Assembly (NCBI GenBank): GCA_018982785.1
Contig: JAHHEN010000001.1
Coordinates: forward strand, 1-64,000
Direction: 5' to 3'
DNA from: Enterococcus innesii
Lineage (GTDB): Bacteria; Bacillota; Bacilli; Lactobacillales; Enterococcaceae
DNA length: 64,000 nucleotides
The notes under the pieces were generated by a model. It made no database searches and was not told the DNA's origin. It worked only from the letters and a program-made list of their open reading frames with translations. Below are positions 49,218-58,347 of the stretch, piece after piece. Numbering within the stretch: position 1 is the first letter of the stretch; each line of letters opens with the position of its first letter. Made by a program: the position numbers and the translations under genes.

Positions 49218-52200
49218 TTATTCTGTGATCGAAACGGTTGCTTGTGCGATTTCTCGTGTGCTTAGGTCAGCAAAGCGATGCAATGCATAGATCGTCATCT
49301 GGCTGTCTTTCGTCACGCGGTTGGCTTGTTCTTGGTTCAAATAAGCGGTAAACGTGCCATCCGCAAAACCACTTACCCACAGAATCATGCCATCAATTTC
49401 AAGTCGTCCAAAGTTGATGTCATCTCCTGTATAGGTTCCCGTAATGGTTCTGTCACCCAGCTTATATGGGTCTGGTGTAATCGTACCAATAAATTCTTTA
49501 TCGATAGTGACTACACTGCGATCCAATTCGGTGTCCACTGGACGGCCATTAACAACCTCCCGATGGTAAGCAACCAATTCAACTGTTTCCGCATCGCGAA
49601 TTAAATTGCGTGTATCTTGATTGACAAAGTAAGTAAAGGTTTGGTCTGTTGTGTTAAAGGTACCACCCCATGAAACTGAACGCCCATCAACGATCAAGTT
49701 GGCGAAATTCACATTACCAGTAAAGGTTCCGGTAATTTCACTCTCTGTCACTTTGAAGGCTGCTGGTTGAATCGAACCTGTTGCTTTGACGATTTCTACC
49801 GGCTGCAACACCAGCTTATGATCAATCGTTTGTCCATCGACTGTTTCACGATGGTAAGTTTGTAATTCAACTTTCGCTGCTGTTCTGATCTGGTCTCTAA
49901 ATTGTGCGTGAACAAAGAATTCAAAGCGACCCGTCTCTTTATTGAAGGTACCACCCCAGTTACCTACCGATTGTCCATCAATCACCAAGTTGGCAAAATT
50001 GATATCCCCCGTAAAGGTTCCCGTAATCGTGGTATCAGTGTAATTGTATTTATCTGGTGTGATCGTCCCTTGAAGTTGATCAATCACTGTTACTTCTTTG
50101 GTTTCTAGCACTTCGATGGCTTCCGTGTTGCCATTGATTTGACGATTCAACGCTTGGATCTCAACTTTGTCGCCCGCTTTGATCCCAAGGTTCGCTACAT
50201 AAAACGAGAAGGTGCCATCGGCATTGAAGGTACCACCCCATGCATTAGAAGGCGTGCCATTGATCACTAAACGGGCAAAGTTGACATCACCCGTAAAGGT
50301 CCCTGTAATCATGGTTTCACCAACTCGGTATTGATCCGGTGTGATCGTACCAGCCAAATCTCTAGTCAATTCAACAGTTGTCCGATCAAGTACTTTGCCA
50401 TATTGATCCAAGGCTTCGATTTCTACGACATCATCTACGGATTGGATGCGATTGCCGATAAAGAATTCGAACGAACCATCAGCAAAATTCCCACCACGAA
50501 CGGATAACCCATTTACATACACACGGGCAGAAGCAACATCACCGGTATACGTTCCTCTCAGGAATTGATCGCCAGAAGAAACATTGTAGGTATCTGGTGT
50601 GATCGTGCCTTCGGTGTTTGCTGGATCAGTGACAACGATCGTTGAAGCAATATTTGATTGCAATCCGTCAATGCTTGCTTGAGCAGTAATAATTGTTCCC
50701 GCTGCTTGTTGATCAATCTCTACTTCAAAATTGCCCTCACTGTCAACAGTGGCATTTTTCGTTTCAGAATCGCCTATAGTAATTTCCACATGTGCATCTG
50801 GTTCGGCTGTTCCACTAACAGTCGTGTCTGTGGTTGTCACTTGATTCAACGTTGTTTCGGCGATCGTTGCGCGCTCAACCATGGTTTCCGCAATATTTGA
50901 TGAAATGCCATTTAAGGTTGCTTGGGCGGTGACTACCGTACCAGCTTGTTGTTTCTCAATCGTCAATGCATAGATACCATCACTACCCACTCGTCCATTC
51001 GCAATGATCGTGTCACCGGCTTTGATCGTAATCTCAGCATTCGGCTCAGCCGTTCCCGTCACACTTGTGGAGTCAGTATTTAGATCGGAAATCGTTGTTT
51101 CGGCAATCGTTTCTTTTTCACTATCTTCTACAACTGTTTCTGCAACCGATTGGATACCATTGGCCGTTGCGGTAACAGTCACTTTTGTTCCAACTGCTAA
51201 CGGTGCGTTCGGAATCGCAAATTGATAAGTTCCATCACTTGCAACGCGTCCCGTCAAACTTCCTTGTCCTTCAATAGTGACTGCTAAATCGGCATTTGGC
51301 TCAGCTCGTCCCGTAATGTGCGTTGAGCTTGTGGTTAAGTCGTCAATGGTCGTTTGTTGAATCGTTGCGGTATCCACAAAGTCACCAAAAGCGATTTTTC
51401 CGATTTGAGAACTATTGAATGTTGCGTTGAAGATTGAGTCATTGGATTCAATTCGCGAAGTAACTTGTTTGTTCGTATAAGTATTTAGTGAGAAAGAACC
51501 TTGTCTAAACTCTGGATAATTAAAGCTGGGCTCTCCTGAAAAATCAGCTGATCTTCTCCAAGTTTGCATTCCTGTCGATGAGTGAATCGTGTAGTTCGTT
51601 GTTCCTGGATAGGACCCAATTGCGGTTCCATTGGTATGATTGTTTTGGATTCGTACATTTGATCCTTCATGGAAAGTGCTTGATTGTCCAACGTTTACCG
51701 TTGAATACGTGCTTCTTCCCACGACATCCAGTGTTCCCCCAGATAATACGGTCAAAGCACCTCGTAATCCCAAGGCTTCTTGTGTTTTTTGCGTATTTGG
51801 TGCACTTGTGATCTTAAACGTTGCATTCGAATTAACTACTACGCTTGAGGCACTTCCTTCGATCAAGACTGCTTTTGCTGTATTTGAAGGATTGTTTTGA
51901 GTAACATCTAATAAGCTGCCTTCACCTAAATCAATTCGACCACCACTTGCAAGATAAATCGCACGAGCTGTTCCGTTGTTATTTGCAACTACAGAAGCAC
52001 CACTGCCGATATTCATCCGGACATTCGAAGTAGCCCAAATCAAGGAACCTGCATTTAATCGGTTTTCGCCAAAGAAATTAGCTGAAGAATTGCTAGCGGC
52101 TAAATAGAGTAAACGCCCTGTTGCATGACTATTTTCATGAGTAACGTTTGTAAAGGAAACACTGGACGTTCTATTTTGATAGATCGTATTTGTTGCATGG

Positions 52201-52826
52201 GCTACGATTCTCACATTTCTGATACTTAATCCTTGATTCACCGTATTTCCATACAACCGAACATTATTCCCGAAGGTTAACGTATGACCATTCCCTTCAA
52301 TCGTTTTGGTCGTCCCTGTCCATGTCACACTACTAGTCATCGTGATGTTATTGGCTAAGCTGATTTGTGTAACGGTCGCATTGGCTAATGCTGTCCGTAA
52401 TTCAGCATCAGACGTTACTTGGACACTTGCCCTTGTTGAACGGGTTTCGGCAGCGTTTTCCGATGAGTCATCAGAACTATTTTCGGAATTTTCTCCATTT
52501 GATGCGTCTGTTTGTTCCTCATTTTCTGCAGCTTCATTATTTTCTGAAGAGTTCTCAGTAGATGCTTCTGTTTGAGCTTCTTCACTTTCAATAGAAGAAC
52601 TATCGGTTTCCTGATTTTCTTGATCATCGGTCGCGGTAATCTCATTGCCTAAGTCTTGCGTCGTTTCACCATCCGATAATAGATTGGGTGCTTCTACTCT
52701 CTCTTGAGGAGCTTCTAAGGAATCGGAAGCTTTTTCTGTCGCCATCGCATTTATTGGCAGCGCCGATAATGTTAAATGACTGATCAACAATAAACCTGTG
52801 ACTTTTTTACTAAATTTGTTATTCAT
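49218..52826 (-). CDS. Large secreted adhesin: pectate-lyase-like domain plus Ig-like modules
   Basis: 1202 aa. Signal peptide (1-29); Ser/Glu/Asn-rich linker (to ~125); beta-helix domain (about 130-480, with GNGHTLTFG, SNVRIQNNHTNG and FSGEPSFNYPEF). Three Ig-like modules follow (about 490-740; each starts IxxTTI/L and holds TGxAEPNA or SGTAEPDA), then five modules beginning G(T/S)I(T/Q)P (about 745-1202; each with TGTFTGD-type cores). No LPxTG, WxL or C-terminal helix is present, so anchoring is unclear. The beta-helix region resembles that of the giant WxL protein. AAAGGAGTTACTT precedes the ATG. Confidence 0.88.
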   Translation of the reverse strand: MNNKFSKKVTGLLLISHLTLSALPINAMATEKASDSLEAPQERVEAPNLLSDGETTQDLGNEITATDDQENQETDSSSIESEEAQTEASTENSSENNEAAENEEQTDASNGENSENSSDDSSENAAETRSTRASVQVTSDAELRTALANATVTQISLANNITMTSSVTWTGTTKTIEGNGHTLTFGNNVRLYGNTVNQGLSIRNVRIVAHATNTIYQNRTSSVSFTNVTHENSHATGRLLYLAASNSSANFFGENRLNAGSLIWATSNVRMNIGSGASVVANNNGTARAIYLASGGRIDLGEGSLLDVTQNNPSNTAKAVLIEGSASSVVVNSNATFKITSAPNTQKTQEALGLRGALTVLSGGTLDVVGRSTYSTVNVGQSSTFHEGSNVRIQNNHTNGTAIGSYPGTTNYTIHSSTGMQTWRRSADFSGEPSFNYPEFRQGSFSLNTYTNKQVTSRIESNDSIFNATFNSSQIGKIAFGDFVDTATIQQTTIDDLTTSSTHITGRAEPNADLAVTIEGQGSLTGRVASDGTYQFAIPNAPLAVGTKVTVTATANGIQSVAETVVEDSEKETIAETTISDLNTDSTSVTGTAEPNAEITIKAGDTIIANGRVGSDGIYALTIEKQQAGTVVTAQATLNGISSNIAETMVERATIAETTLNQVTTTDTTVSGTAEPDAHVEITIGDSETKNATVDSEGNFEVEIDQQAAGTIITAQASIDGLQSNIASTIVVTDPANTEGTITPDTYNVSSGDQFLRGTYTGDVASARVYVNGLSVRGGNFADGSFEFFIGNRIQSVDDVVEIEALDQYGKVLDRTTVELTRDLAGTITPDQYRVGETMITGTFTGDVNFARLVINGTPSNAWGGTFNADGTFSFYVANLGIKAGDKVEIQALNRQINGNTEAIEVLETKEVTVIDQLQGTITPDKYNYTDTTITGTFTGDINFANLVIDGQSVGNWGGTFNKETGRFEFFVHAQFRDQIRTAAKVELQTYHRETVDGQTIDHKLVLQPVEIVKATGSIQPAAFKVTESEITGTFTGNVNFANLIVDGRSVSWGGTFNTTDQTFTYFVNQDTRNLIRDAETVELVAYHREVVNGRPVDTELDRSVVTIDKEFIGTITPDPYKLGDRTITGTYTGDDINFGRLEIDGMILWVSGFADGTFTAYLNQEQANRVTKDSQMTIYALHRFADLSTREIAQATVSITE

Positions 52827-53394: not shown

Positions 53395-53403
53395 TGGTAT
53401 AAT
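53395..53403 (+). promoter_or_regulatory. Extended -10 promoter of the small ORF
   Basis: TGG-TATAAT (53395-53403) without a clear -35 element; transcription would begin near 53410. Confidence 0.6.
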
Positions 53404-53431
53404 AATTAGAGATCTGCGTATCATTAGATTT

Positions 53432-53471
53432 ACGTTGCCCGTTAGTGAAGTTTCAGGCAACGTTTCTTTTT
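53432..53471 (+). terminator. Leader terminator upstream of the small ORF
   Basis: ACGTTGCC (53432-53439) pairs with GGCAACGT (53456-53463) and is followed by TTCTTTTT, an intrinsic terminator only 14 bp before the start codon. It either makes a ~60 nt RNA or attenuates the downstream gene. Confidence 0.75.
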
Positions 53472-53484
53472 GGGGGATAGCTAT

Positions 53485-53688
53485 ATGGAAGATAAGCAAA
53501 TTTTTGATAAGCGGTGGCTATTAGCTACCAGTGAACAACGGGAGAAATACCATGCCTTAATTGCCTCTTACCCTTCAATAGAGTGGACTTTTAAAGAAAA
53601 AAGCTACCTTTTGTGGCTTTGCCAACTAGATAATGACACATTCAAATCCTTTGAAGCGATTTTTGCTAAACTGGCAAATGAACAGTAA
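53485..53688 (+). CDS. Small protein of unknown function behind a leader terminator
   Basis: 67 aa, charged and aromatic-rich, no membrane segment, not recognised. GGGGGA lies 7 bases before the ATG at 53485 and directly follows the leader terminator T-run. Expression should depend on terminator readthrough, so conditional expression is likely. An alternative is that only the leader RNA matters. A strong terminator at 53777-53820 follows. Confidence 0.6.
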   Translation: MEDKQIFDKRWLLATSEQREKYHALIASYPSIEWTFKEKSYLLWLCQLDNDTFKSFEAIFAKLANEQ

Positions 53689-53776: not shown

Positions 53777-53820
53777 AAAAAAGCCACAACCATTTTTCTC
53801 AACGGTTGTGGCTTTTTAGC
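53777..53820. terminator. Bidirectional terminator
   Basis: AAAAAGCCACAACC pairs with GGTTGTGGCTTTTT around a 12 nt loop, between the small ORF and Mga-like regulator 6. Confidence 0.9.
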
Positions 53821-53896: not shown

Positions 53897-55387
53897 TTAA
53901 CTTGGGGTTGCACTTAATGCTTGCCCCAACTGAGGATCGATTTTTTCAATCACTCTTAGCCAATCTTGATGATCCGGGATTGTTTTAAGTAAGAGATAGT
54001 CCGTGGATAAGATGAACTCTGATAGGTATTCACTATAATTCGTTACCACGAGATCGATAGCATTTTCCTTCAAATAGGCAGTCGTCAATTCATTGATTTT
54101 TGGGAAAAACACGTAATGATCATTGCCAACATAGCGCAAAAAGCGTGCGCGGATAGCGTGACAGGTGTAAAGGTCGCCTTCTAATGTCAATGCGATTCGG
54201 TTGACCTTTTGATAATAGAGTTCCTTGAGCGCCTCACTATACAAGGTAAGCGCTGCACAGATATCAGACAGGTACTCCTTACTGACCCCAAGAATTGCTT
54301 GATTCTGCTTCAAAAATACAAGATTTTTTTGATAGGCGACGTAGCTATGCTTTAGGGGCTCATTTTTTACTTCCGTCAGCAAGCGATTCAAAATGGGCGC
54401 TAGTTGATCATTGATTTTCTTAGATAACAAAAAGGCGTGAATCATCGTCTCGATTAGTTGGGGATCATTAAATGGGATGCCCCATTCTTGAACAAAGTGT
54501 TGACTTAGCGCCTGTAGTTCAGGATAAAGTGCAAACAATGCAATGAACTGCTGTTCTTTTACGGGCTCAGTCAATGTACGCTTCATCACCGTGACTAGAT
54601 AAAGCCACACCAATTCTTCTTGTGGTAGTCTCACCTGGTAAAGGGCTTCGATTTTAGGTGCTAAGTCTTTCATTACGGTAAATGCCGTGTGGTCTTTGAC
54701 TATCTCAGCCAAATGAGTAGGAAGTTGGATGGTCTTTCCAGACTGATAACGCTTGATTGTAATATACAAACTATAATAAAAATCACTAGGAGCAACACCC
54801 GTGTTCACCACATCAGTTGGCACTTCTGAAAACGTCTCACTGACTACCGCAATCAGCTCTTTAGGTGGAAGCAGAGTATGAGGAGTAACATCTGATTCAT
54901 AATAAAAATCTTTGAAAAATTTACGAATATTCGCTTCTACTCCACTCAAATTAACTGGTTGTAGCACCAACTCTAAACCATACTTTCTCAACGTGAGTGA
55001 AGCACTATTCAAATAACGCCGCATCGTGCTTTCTGATACATACAAGCGCTGTGCCCACTCTTCAACAGAACAAAGTTCACCATGAAAGATTGCTTCTAAA
55101 ATTTGATACATACCTTCTTTTGCAACCAGCGCTCTTTTTTTGGTCAAGTATACTTTCGGATTCGTTTCCATAAAATGATAACCATTAGCCACATGCACAA
55201 ACTTGGCTGCATCCTGCAAATAGGCTTTCAGTTCCTTGATATCAGAGCTGATCGTCCGTTGAGTTACATCAAGTTTGTTCGCAAAGCTTGCGATTGAACA
55301 AGTACGTTCACGCTCAAACGCATTTAAAATTTGAAGCCAGCGAACGGTCGTTTTGTTCAGCATAAAACTTAACTGCAATTCTCTCAT
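53897..55387 (-). CDS. Mga-like transcriptional regulator 6
   Basis: 496 aa. HTH segments CSIASFANKLDVTQRTISSDIKEL (about 30-53) and CSVEEWAQRLYVSESTMRRYL (about 106-126); the block FFKDFYYESDVTPHTLLPP; and a C-terminal EIIB-like domain with NRIALTLEGD and DLVVTNYSEY. AAGGAGGGGAAC precedes the ATG at 55387. It is divergent from the serine recombinase and lies 1.1 kb downstream (in its own direction) of nothing obvious. The large adhesin on the same strand could be a target, by proximity only. Confidence 0.85.
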   Translation of the reverse strand: MRELQLSFMLNKTTVRWLQILNAFERERTCSIASFANKLDVTQRTISSDIKELKAYLQDAAKFVHVANGYHFMETNPKVYLTKKRALVAKEGMYQILEAIFHGELCSVEEWAQRLYVSESTMRRYLNSASLTLRKYGLELVLQPVNLSGVEANIRKFFKDFYYESDVTPHTLLPPKELIAVVSETFSEVPTDVVNTGVAPSDFYYSLYITIKRYQSGKTIQLPTHLAEIVKDHTAFTVMKDLAPKIEALYQVRLPQEELVWLYLVTVMKRTLTEPVKEQQFIALFALYPELQALSQHFVQEWGIPFNDPQLIETMIHAFLLSKKINDQLAPILNRLLTEVKNEPLKHSYVAYQKNLVFLKQNQAILGVSKEYLSDICAALTLYSEALKELYYQKVNRIALTLEGDLYTCHAIRARFLRYVGNDHYVFFPKINELTTAYLKENAIDLVVTNYSEYLSEFILSTDYLLLKTIPDHQDWLRVIEKIDPQLGQALSATPS

Positions 55388-55793: not shown

Positions 55794-56369
55794 ATGTCAA
55801 ATATGGTTTATGGATACGCTCGCGTATCTACAAGACAGCAGGATCTTTCTCGTCAACTAGACTTGCTTGAACGATATGAATGCCACAAAATTTATACTGA
55901 AAAAATTAGCGGCATTCGCACAAATCGACCGGAATTAAACAAACTAAAAAAGCGAGTGAAAGAAAATGACAAAATTATTATTGAAAGCTTTTCACGGCTT
56001 GGTCGGAGCACCAAAGACTTGATTGATCTCGTCTATTTTTTCGAAAGAAAAGGAGTAAAAGTGATTAGTATCAAAGAAAATTTTGATACACAGACCCCTC
56101 AAGGAAAACTGATGATGACGGTTTTCCAAGCCTTCAGCCAATTTGAACGAGACATTATTGTGGAGCGAACCAAAGAAGGGCTAGATTCTGCTAGAGCCAG
56201 AGGAAATATTGGTGGGCGTCCACGAATCGACCCTAAACTGATTCAGCACGCCCTGAATCTTTATCAGAAGGAAGGTCGAACTGTCGTTGATATTTGTGCC
56301 CAAACTGGAATAAAACGATCAACTTTCTATCGCTATCTTCGTTTAGAAAACAACAACCTCCTTTCATGA
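55794..56369 (+). CDS. Serine recombinase (resolvase/invertase family)
   Basis: 191 aa, full length. Catalytic domain with YGYARVSTRQQDLSRQLD (nucleophile Ser at about residue 12), SFSRLGRSTKDL, QTPQGKLMMTVFQAFSQFERDIIVERTKEGL, then the C-terminal HTH GGRPRIDPKLI...GIKRSTFYRYL. It could be a DNA invertase, a transposon resolvase or a plasmid-derived relic; no transposase or paired sites are visible. TGGAGGA precedes the ATG. It sits between two Mga-like genes in a region rich in surface functions. Confidence 0.92.
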   Translation: MSNMVYGYARVSTRQQDLSRQLDLLERYECHKIYTEKISGIRTNRPELNKLKKRVKENDKIIIESFSRLGRSTKDLIDLVYFFERKGVKVISIKENFDTQTPQGKLMMTVFQAFSQFERDIIVERTKEGLDSARARGNIGGRPRIDPKLIQHALNLYQKEGRTVVDICAQTGIKRSTFYRYLRLENNNLLS

Positions 56370-56835
56370 ATAGGTACTCTGATTTTGCTAATGACCCTAG
56401 ATTCCCCGTAACAAAAAGCACAAGACGGATCTTGCTGATTTGTTTGATCCTTCAAAGATAACTTCTTAAGTTAGCTTTGAGGGACACTCACAGTTCTTCG
56501 TCCGGTGCTTTTTTCGTCTAGCAGATTGTTTCCTTTATTCTTCTTCATTGCTTTTTCTTTTGCTCTCTTTTCTAGAGGAACTTCCGATGATTTGTCCTCT
56601 CCCGAACCTAAGCTAAGATGCACCGAAACAGGCACCGTTCTTTTCGAAGGGCACTTCTTCGTTAATTGAAGGGTGATTTACGTATAAGTAGCGCTTGTTA
56701 AATCTGGTTCTATTAAGTTTCAAAGGATAAAGCTTCTTGATTGACGTAGAGTATTATATAATCTACTTAAAACCAACGTAATTTACATTCGGCACTGATT
56801 GCTTCCATAAGATTTTAAAAGAGGTGGTGATATCA
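56370..56835. other. Intergenic region downstream of the recombinase
   Basis: About 465 bp. A CCTTCAAAG/CTTTGAGGG stem (56449-56483) without T-run may end the recombinase transcript. A GTAGA...TCTAC inverted repeat around an AT-rich core at 56746-56766 lies 70 bp before Mga-like regulator 7. I see no gene. Confidence 0.45.
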
Positions 56836-58347
56836 ATGTTAGAAAATTTATCAATCAATTTGCATCGAGACAAGTCATTTTCCCGTCAAGTAAAAATTTT
56901 ACAGATGCTAAATGCAGCACCAACCGGTTATCATCCGCAAGAATTGGCAACGTTGTTGGGTCTATCTATGCCGACAATCACGAAAGAACTCAATGTTTTA
57001 AGCGATAGCTTGCCAGAAGAACTGATTAAAATCAACTTTTCTGAAAGTAACATCGTTTCAATCAAGTATGCACCAAATGCCTCAATCAATTTAGCGATTC
57101 AGCTTTTAAGCATGGAAACACTCGAGTTTAAAATCATGTCGAGTATCATTGATAACAAAAAATACTCCATTCATCGAGCAACGATCGAATTTGGCTATTC
57201 TCGTAGTCACTTGTTGCGAACCATCAGCTACATGAACAAGTCTTTACAAACCTATTCTGTGACGATCGCTACGAATCAACTTGACTTTATTGGTACTGAA
57301 GCCGATATTCGTTTTTGTCTGTTTGTCTTTTTCTCCGCTTATGGTGACAGCACGATTTTAGATAAAGATAGCCCGGCGGATGCACGTCTTCTGGTCCAAA
57401 AAGCCAAGGAAGCCAACAAGAAAGAGTTACATTACAGCCATTATCGACTGGCCCTGTGGTTAAGTATCGCCAAACGCAGATGGCGCTATTCTTACTTTTT
57501 GAACTTGCCGCCTTCTTTAGAGCGTAACCTATTGGAAAAAGAACGCTTTAGCATTTTCTCGCAAGTATTGAACGAGTATTATTTAAAAAAATACCGGATC
57601 ATTCACTTACCAAAACAAGAACTACTTTGGCTCTTCCTCACTACACTCCACTGTCTGTCTTATAGTACATTGGATGTTACTGAAGAAGATGCAGCTAAAT
57701 ACATTTTTCACCATACAGAGAAACCGGAAATCATTGCGGAAATTGGTCTGTTTTTAAAAAAAGGCCAACAACCTATTTCCTCTGCAGTCTCTCAGAAAAT
57801 CATCTCTTATCTAGTGAACCTCCGCTTGTTATCGATGATTTCTGCCAACTATGAATTTGCTGATCCACAAATCAAAACCTTTGTTGAATCGACCTTTAAG
57901 ACAGAGTACCTCGCTTGGAATAAGTGGTTGAAACAATTCAATGACCAAAGCGCCTTCTTCTCCTTTACTCACTTGGAGCATATCGCAGTCACATTGACCT
58001 TATTAAGCGAACTGGCACCTAGTACTCCGCTAAAAAAACAACTTAAAGTGGCCTTTGCTTTTCAAGGTGGCGCTGGATTGGATGCTTTCTTAGCCGCATC
58101 AGCGGAGCTATTCAAAAATGATCAGACTGAAGTCAGTTACTTTTTCGAAGTGACTCCTGATACCCATGAATTGATCCATCAGGAAATTGATTTGATCGTC
58201 AGCAATTTTGACTTACACTTGAAAAATAACCCCCACTTTCAGCAATTGCGAATTTCGAATGTACCAAGTCTATCTGACTGGATGATCATTCATAAAACGA
58301 TTGAACAATTGGTTCAGCCAAAGCTCATCCCCGATTATTTACCGTAA
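56836..58347 (+). CDS. Mga-like transcriptional regulator 7
   Basis: 503 aa. HTH YHPQELATLLGLSMPTITKELNVL (about 32-55) and a second HTH (YSIHRATIEFGYSRSHLLRTI), helical middle, and a C-terminal EIIB-like domain with KVAFAFQGG and DLIVSNFDLH, a diverged form of the VVTNYxEY signature. I chose the ATG at 56836 with GAGGTGG upstream. A hairpin at 58346-58392 follows. Confidence 0.82.
   Translation: MLENLSINLHRDKSFSRQVKILQMLNAAPTGYHPQELATLLGLSMPTITKELNVLSDSLPEELIKINFSESNIVSIKYAPNASINLAIQLLSMETLEFKIMSSIIDNKKYSIHRATIEFGYSRSHLLRTISYMNKSLQTYSVTIATNQLDFIGTEADIRFCLFVFFSAYGDSTILDKDSPADARLLVQKAKEANKKELHYSHYRLALWLSIAKRRWRYSYFLNLPPSLERNLLEKERFSIFSQVLNEYYLKKYRIIHLPKQELLWLFLTTLHCLSYSTLDVTEEDAAKYIFHHTEKPEIIAEIGLFLKKGQQPISSAVSQKIISYLVNLRLLSMISANYEFADPQIKTFVESTFKTEYLAWNKWLKQFNDQSAFFSFTHLEHIAVTLTLLSELAPSTPLKKQLKVAFAFQGGAGLDAFLAASAELFKNDQTEVSYFFEVTPDTHELIHQEIDLIVSNFDLHLKNNPHFQQLRISNVPSLSDWMIIHKTIEQLVQPKLIPDYLP

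Follow-up and report, generated by a model that had tools for sequence, protein, structure and literature searches.

A putative terminator RNA with a nearly invariant loop on plasmids and chromosomes of Enterococcus

The leader of a 67-codon open reading frame (ORF) in Enterococcus innesii is a structured RNA belonging to a covarying family, in which the stem of a hairpin is kept by compensatory changes across contexts. This conclusion, together with the conservation of the hairpin loop, the geometry of the leader, the purifying selection on the ORF and the occurrence of the RNA without the ORF, rests on data. As far as our searches go the family, found in enterococci and on plasmids, is apparently new and of a familiar kind; a literature search found the leader RNA undescribed, though it could still stand unnamed in a transcription map. 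We lean, if only slightly, towards the reading that it is a mobile terminator RNA of about 60 nt whose loop contacts a partner acting in trans and which, at this locus, also throttles the small gene.

The leader lies within a window of 64,000 nucleotides (contig JAHHEN010000001.1, positions 1 to 64,000), to which all coordinates refer; features are on the plus strand unless otherwise marked. An original prediction, made from the letters of the window, had described here a small ORF behind an intrinsic terminator in its own leader. That observation is confirmed and its interpretation holds in part, while the conservation of the loop, the plasmid family and the stand-alone copies of the RNA were absent from it.

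Layout of the leader and covariation of its stem

The extended -10 promoter that had been predicted is present as TGGTATAAT (TG-G-TATAAT) at 53395-53403, as read from the sequence. In 30 of 33 distinct copies a box TGnTAnnnT lies upstream where it would be expected, whereas 200 shuffles gave 3.25 such copies on average and never more than 8. A consensus scanner did not report the promoter and no -35 element is recognisable. Transcription would be expected to start at about 53410, some 22 nt 5' of the stem; we infer this position, like that of termination, from the sequence. The 5' segment of the RNA (AGATCTGC...TTAGAYTT, 53410-53431) is alike in alignments of most ORF-linked copies and differs in stand-alone copies. 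As predicted, a terminator follows closely: the arms ACGTTGCC (53432-53439) and GGCAACGT (53456-53463) form the 8-bp covarying stem of a hairpin at 53432-53463, enclosing the nearly invariant 16-nt loop CGTTAGTGAAGTTTCA (53440-53455), and the T-run of the intrinsic terminator occupies 53463-53471. This terminator was not reported by the consensus scanner either, whose loop limit is 8 nt. A second, weaker hairpin with an 8-nt loop appears 5' of the terminator stem when the window sequence is folded.

The ribosome site, GGGGGA at 53472-53477, directly follows the T-run. Of the 18 copies whose ORF is intact or broken, 15 have GGGG and three have GGAGG or GAGGG. The ORF runs from an ATG at 53485 to a stop codon at 53686-53688. 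A promoter of its own is very unlikely, since the spacing from T-run to ATG is only 13 nt and inspection by eye of the hairpin's 3' arm and the sequence beyond it revealed no -10-like box; the same two features speak against a transcription start downstream of the hairpin, named in the original prediction as evidence to the contrary. With so short a gap the ORF is, in our judgement, almost certainly expressed via read-through of the terminator. A strong terminator-like hairpin (AAGCCACAACC...GGTTGTGGCTTTTT) was also seen by eye 3' of the ORF, at 53780-53816.

Taken as a single sequence the leader folds unremarkably (-15.2 kcal/mol, z -1.33), 18 of 200 shuffles folding equally well. The original prediction had suggested looking for covariation in relatives, and it is comparative evidence of this kind, not the single-sequence fold, that places the hairpin above chance. 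In 16 aligned leaders sharing one helix, the eight stem pairs are kept in 98.4% of cells and six of the eight have changed on both sides. None of 500 shuffles reached the observed paired percentage or the covariation score of 0.484, for which the shuffled mean was 0.241. When the partner strand was slid, at most 52.3% of cells were paired, a comparison that favours slide 0 because the structure was read from the same 16 rows; the double changes are independent of that. The count of further pair types was ordinary, being reached by 161 of 500 shuffles. A contiguous stem of at least 7 bp is present in 26 of 31 distinct copies.

Conservation of the loop

In the places sampled, the loop is either present nearly unchanged or missing along with the leader. 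The consensus 16-nt loop, CGTTANTGAAGTTTCA, is exact in nine of ten plasmid ORF matches chosen without regard to the loop (10 of the 196 plasmid records from the protein search, several of them closely related); the remaining match, L021, is without such a leader. At ten ORF places in 40 genomes the exact loop was found at four (L001, L002, L006 and L009) and no loop at six. Among 29 distinct copies, all but one of the 16 loop columns show the same letter in 27 copies or more, a figure that is partly built in, as the copies were gathered by loop pattern, BLAST or covariance model. Column 6 is free, with G in 13 copies, T in 13 and A in three. The ten letters on the 3' side of the loop form a self-complementary stretch, counting two G-U pairs. 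The borders of the loop are sharp, for the closing pair at stem position 1 is C-G in 24 of the 29 copies, G-C in three and T-A in two. The loops of L006 and L009 are identical, while their ORFs differ by 25% of nucleotides. A degenerate loop was found by the model in L043 and L046, both of which are among the 13 copies with an intact ORF, and once more in L123.

In 105 family genomes the exact 15-mer was found at 21 places, spread over 19 of the genomes, against five matches for the reversed control. A stem reaching 5 bp is present at 16 of the 21, and the five stemless places equal in number the five control matches. A search of 97 genomes with one mismatch allowed yielded nine matches, all exact, and ten for the reversed control, and on its own proves little. 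A phage origin was considered and rejected: 40 viral contigs carry the same loop letters, with never more than three contiguous stem pairs, so that these matches look like chance, and the protein occurs in none of 50,697 phage records (E 0.01).

Several further structures were also set aside. An H-type pseudoknot noticed by eye, in which ACUU 5' of the stem would pair with the loop letters AAGU, is broken in L027, L029 and L054. A mini-hairpin within the loop, UGA-AGUU-UCA, has one inner pair kept by a double change in two degenerate copies and one pair broken in pMRC01, and is too little to claim. The reading frame of a tiny in-frame peptide through the leader is, by eye, not kept among copies.

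The ORF is a genuine gene under purifying selection, with dN/dS of about 0.1. This ratio was computable for six of ten ORF pairs, lying between 0.07 and 0.13 in five and at 0.31 in one, and synonymous sites were saturated in four. These pairs bear on the simplest account of the leader, namely that it is a plain constitutive terminator keeping expression low, its loop seeming conserved only through recent plasmid spread. The distribution is indeed mobile, and 98 of the 175 plasmid records matching the leader share at least 99% identity with the query, so that one plasmid lineage dominates. However, the loops in the four saturated pairs are identical apart, at most, from the free column, and stand-alone copies with an identical loop have wholly different stems. 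We regard a plain terminator as improbable, and continue to favour an RNA whose loop is read in trans.

Occurrence of the RNA with and without the ORF

A covariance model of the leader found the RNA at 17 places in 14 of 105 Enterococcaceae genomes; across the order, with an even draw and stricter filters, it was found in 10 of 395 genomes, all Enterococcaceae. The leader of L023, used as query, matched 175 of 72,556 plasmid records, comprising 172 from Enterococcus and three from Lactococcus. As 61 of these fall in the 80-90% identity band, of which one (L123) was read, L043-like leaders may be numerous among plasmids. Some of the matching Enterococcus plasmids carry resistance genes.

The ORF family is distributed similarly, in 196 of the 72,556 plasmid records (193 from Enterococcus and three from Lactococcus), pMRC01 being one carrier. 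ORF relatives were present in 5 of 40 genomes searched, including the home genome (3,687,248 bases in 14 contigs), which has three copies counting that at 53485-53688. A protein of Enterococcus casseliflavus NBRC 100478, 89% identical, is the sole named locus confirmed by genome scan, a scan that may omit very near records. The 67-residue protein has no match in Pfam, NCBIfam, PHROGs or PADLOC at E 0.001, and its best match among solved chains reaches only E 0.16. Its predicted structure comprises four helices (mean pLDDT 91.3), for which no fold match was found at E 0.001 in PDB and viral libraries. On several plasmids a neighbouring gene encodes a resolvase, a protein of 101-107 residues, a Y-family polymerase, ParA or a peptidase of the SOS response. 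Of two plasmid-type copies of the 101-107-residue protein that were tested, one weakly resembles homing-endonuclease or NUMOD domains. In the window itself, Mga-type regulators (53897-55387, minus strand, and 56824-58347, plus strand) lie near the leader on either side of a resolvase gene (55794-56369), and a 1202-residue protein of surface type, comprising a Pectate_lyase_5 domain and six Big_15 stretches, is encoded beside the leader at 49218-52826 on the minus strand.

The RNA and the ORF come apart in both directions. The ORF is intact (64-75 codons) in 13 of the 31 distinct copies of the RNA, broken in five and absent in 13. Three of the ORF-free copies (L026 at 1269, L037 and L129 at 24040) resemble ORF-linked leaders after loss of the ORF; the other ten are stand-alone, some of them representing a single locus met again in related genomes or plasmids. 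Stems of at least 8 bp persist beside four of the five broken ORFs. Such retention of the RNA is not general, since three decayed ORF relatives (L004, L005 and L008) have no loop nearby. Conversely, six loci with ORF relatives (L003, L004, L005, L007, L010 and L021) are without the RNA as judged by the model. The T-run is weak, missing or deleted in four ORF-free copies (L044, L045, L062 and L121). On the E. faecium plasmids L121, L125 and L126, all three stand-alone copies read are without the 3' arm of the hairpin and the T-run. Among the 60 matches listed from the 229 records of a search, 57 stop just after the loop, and coverage of at least 80% is found in only two of the 229; intact copies exist, yet the broken form lacking the 3' arm seems common on those plasmids.

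Chromosomal stand-alone copies were found next to regulators. One (L048, in genome G117) lies about 200 nt 5' of a Mga-like gene, and G073 and G118 have the same flanking sequence; another (L051, G102) is about 50 nt 5' of a LytTR response regulator; and a third, in G003, is about 370 nt 5' of the first gene of a cluster containing AgrB. In that cluster (L050, 1773-5153) the neighbouring ORFs read as regulator- or kinase-like.

These positions, and that of the hairpin directly before the ORF in E. innesii, would suit an attenuator acting in cis, in which a factor binding the loop or the 5' tail chooses between termination and read-through in the manner of ANTAR or BglG-type antiterminators, the stand-alone copies then attenuating other regulator genes or serving as decoys. 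A riboswitch-bearing E. faecalis RNA that sequesters a response regulator (PMC7724050) is a precedent for a decoy. Against attenuation in cis, no competing antiterminator helix is evident in the leader, as the stem arms vary and so leave no fixed 5' segment able to pair with them, and one stand-alone copy (L049, G115) is followed by about 980 nt in which its strand has no ORF of at least 55 residues. The original prediction had read the layout as that of an attenuator or of a small RNA of about 60 nt with occasional read-through. The layout stands, and of its two readings we favour the small RNA, given that 13 of the 31 distinct copies are free of the ORF. A search of the leader for signs of regulated attenuation in cis revealed no leader peptide, Rfam riboswitch or ANTAR-type double hairpin. 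We consider such attenuation a somewhat doubtful possibility, and one that could hold at once with our preferred reading of a partner in trans.

Comparison with known systems and possible function

The hairpin matches no known Rfam family, whether riboswitch, T-box or other: its sole match, to mir-33, a model of an animal microRNA, scores 13.5 bits (gathering threshold 50) with E 6.6, and no match at the leader RNA was found in nine further sources at E up to 0.5. Nor does it resemble a ribosome-mediated attenuator, there being by eye no ATG, and so no leader peptide, between the expected start and the hairpin. The closest parallels are with three systems. ANTAR (EutV) leaders of Enterococcus faecalis and the related decoy RNA, known as EutX, likewise tie hairpin loops of fixed letters to intrinsic terminators, and occur as leaders in cis and, once, as an RNA in trans. 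The ANTAR motif itself (PMC3369931) consists of two 3-bp hairpins with hexanucleotide loops in which A at position 1 and G at position 4 are conserved. Here, in contrast, the conserved element is a single 8-bp hairpin that is the terminator stem itself, with its 16-nt loop, and the weaker 5' hairpin has a loop of 8 nt; an ANTAR motif was accordingly rejected.

The second parallel is with the type III toxin-antitoxin loci ToxIN, CptIN and TenpIN, in which an RNA is likewise followed by a terminator and then a protein gene. The leader and ORF might by analogy form an addiction pair, the RNA before the terminator neutralising the protein made by read-through, and the order promoter, RNA, terminator, small gene fits this, as does the plasmid setting, close to resolvase genes and on several plasmids also to partition genes. 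However, type III loci have tandem RNA repeats before the terminator (PMC5086642), whereas the approximately 22 nt between expected start and stem show no repeat by eye; the protein matches no known toxin family or fold at E 0.001, where type III loci encode an endoribonuclease toxin, and RNA and ORF each occur alone. An addiction pair is in our view very improbable.

The third is the type I system Fst/par, whose convergent RNAs share a bidirectional terminator and direct repeats, and whose antitoxin, RNA II, is a short plasmid RNA with a terminator loop that starts RNA contact (PMC7472228 for both). The resemblance to RNA II (Rfam RefA9, with RefB11) lies in a short plasmid RNA ending in a terminator with a contact loop. 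Unlike Fst/par, no convergent toxin RNA was seen here, no Fst-like ORF was found by eye among minus-strand ORFs of at least 30 residues, and neither RefA9 nor RefB11 matches at the leader RNA. The E. gallinarum plasmid pEG002 (L022), itself a carrier of the leader, has three RefB11/RefA9 pairs (Fst-type toxin RNA/antitoxin RNA) within 16 kb, which differ from the leader RNA in sequence and layout.

The contact might be made with RNA. A small RNA acting in trans, its loop serving as seed for pairing with chromosomal mRNAs and the ORF being a passenger or co-expressed partner, would account for an exposed loop that is nearly fixed, a promoter box of its own and copies free of the ORF. The loop and tail were screened for duplexes against both strands of six carrier replicons, with four dinucleotide-type shuffles: pAJ10XM1A, pF162_2_2, G000:C14 and G048:C2 whole, 45,000 of the 60,232 bases of pMRC01 and 50,000 of the 61,338 bases of pP47-61. 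Windows with a 9-base exact complement were masked, which removes the RNA itself and could hide a true target. In 5 of the 12 tests, against 2.4 expected, the best non-self duplex was stronger than that of every one of the four shuffles, the excess being about 1 kcal/mol at most and the places unrelated; unmasked, there was one loop duplex in pP47 of -19.1 kcal/mol. No complementary site for loop or tail is common to the six replicons, and neither loop nor tail contains, by eye, a CCTCC-like anti-Shine-Dalgarno motif. Pairing with mRNAs is tentative as an explanation, a possibility that we place below that of the mobile RNA read through its loop.

For this favoured reading the following course can be proposed. 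Transcription would start at the extended -10 box and run through a short 5' tail into the hairpin, acting as the RNA's own intrinsic terminator, at which the majority of transcripts would end as a small RNA. The stem would be selected for pairing only and the 16-nt loop letter by letter. Since the stem is conserved in its pairing alone and the loop by its letters, the loop would be the contact site of a trans-acting partner that several enterococcal species share, be it a second RNA or a protein that binds RNA. Where an ORF follows, the rare transcripts passing the terminator would be the sole source of the small protein, whose level might be set by the partner or simply by terminator strength. 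Termination in the cell, the separate small RNA product and both the existence and nature of the partner are here what we infer. A more far-reaching version is rather speculative: an undescribed mobile family of terminator-loop RNAs, shared by Enterococcus plasmids and chromosomes, might all be recognised by a single RNA-binding factor of the host, for which the copies on plasmids would be decoys or sensors that link expression of the small protein to Mga-like, LytTR or agr-like regulators.

The combination of a drifting stem and a fixed loop in a terminator suggests that the loop is read by some partner, and the 16-nt loop would offer a concrete bait for such an RNA-binding factor or RNA partner. 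The leader also suggests how a conserved plasmid gene may be held at a low level, by an RNA that sits beside chromosomal regulators as well as on plasmids.
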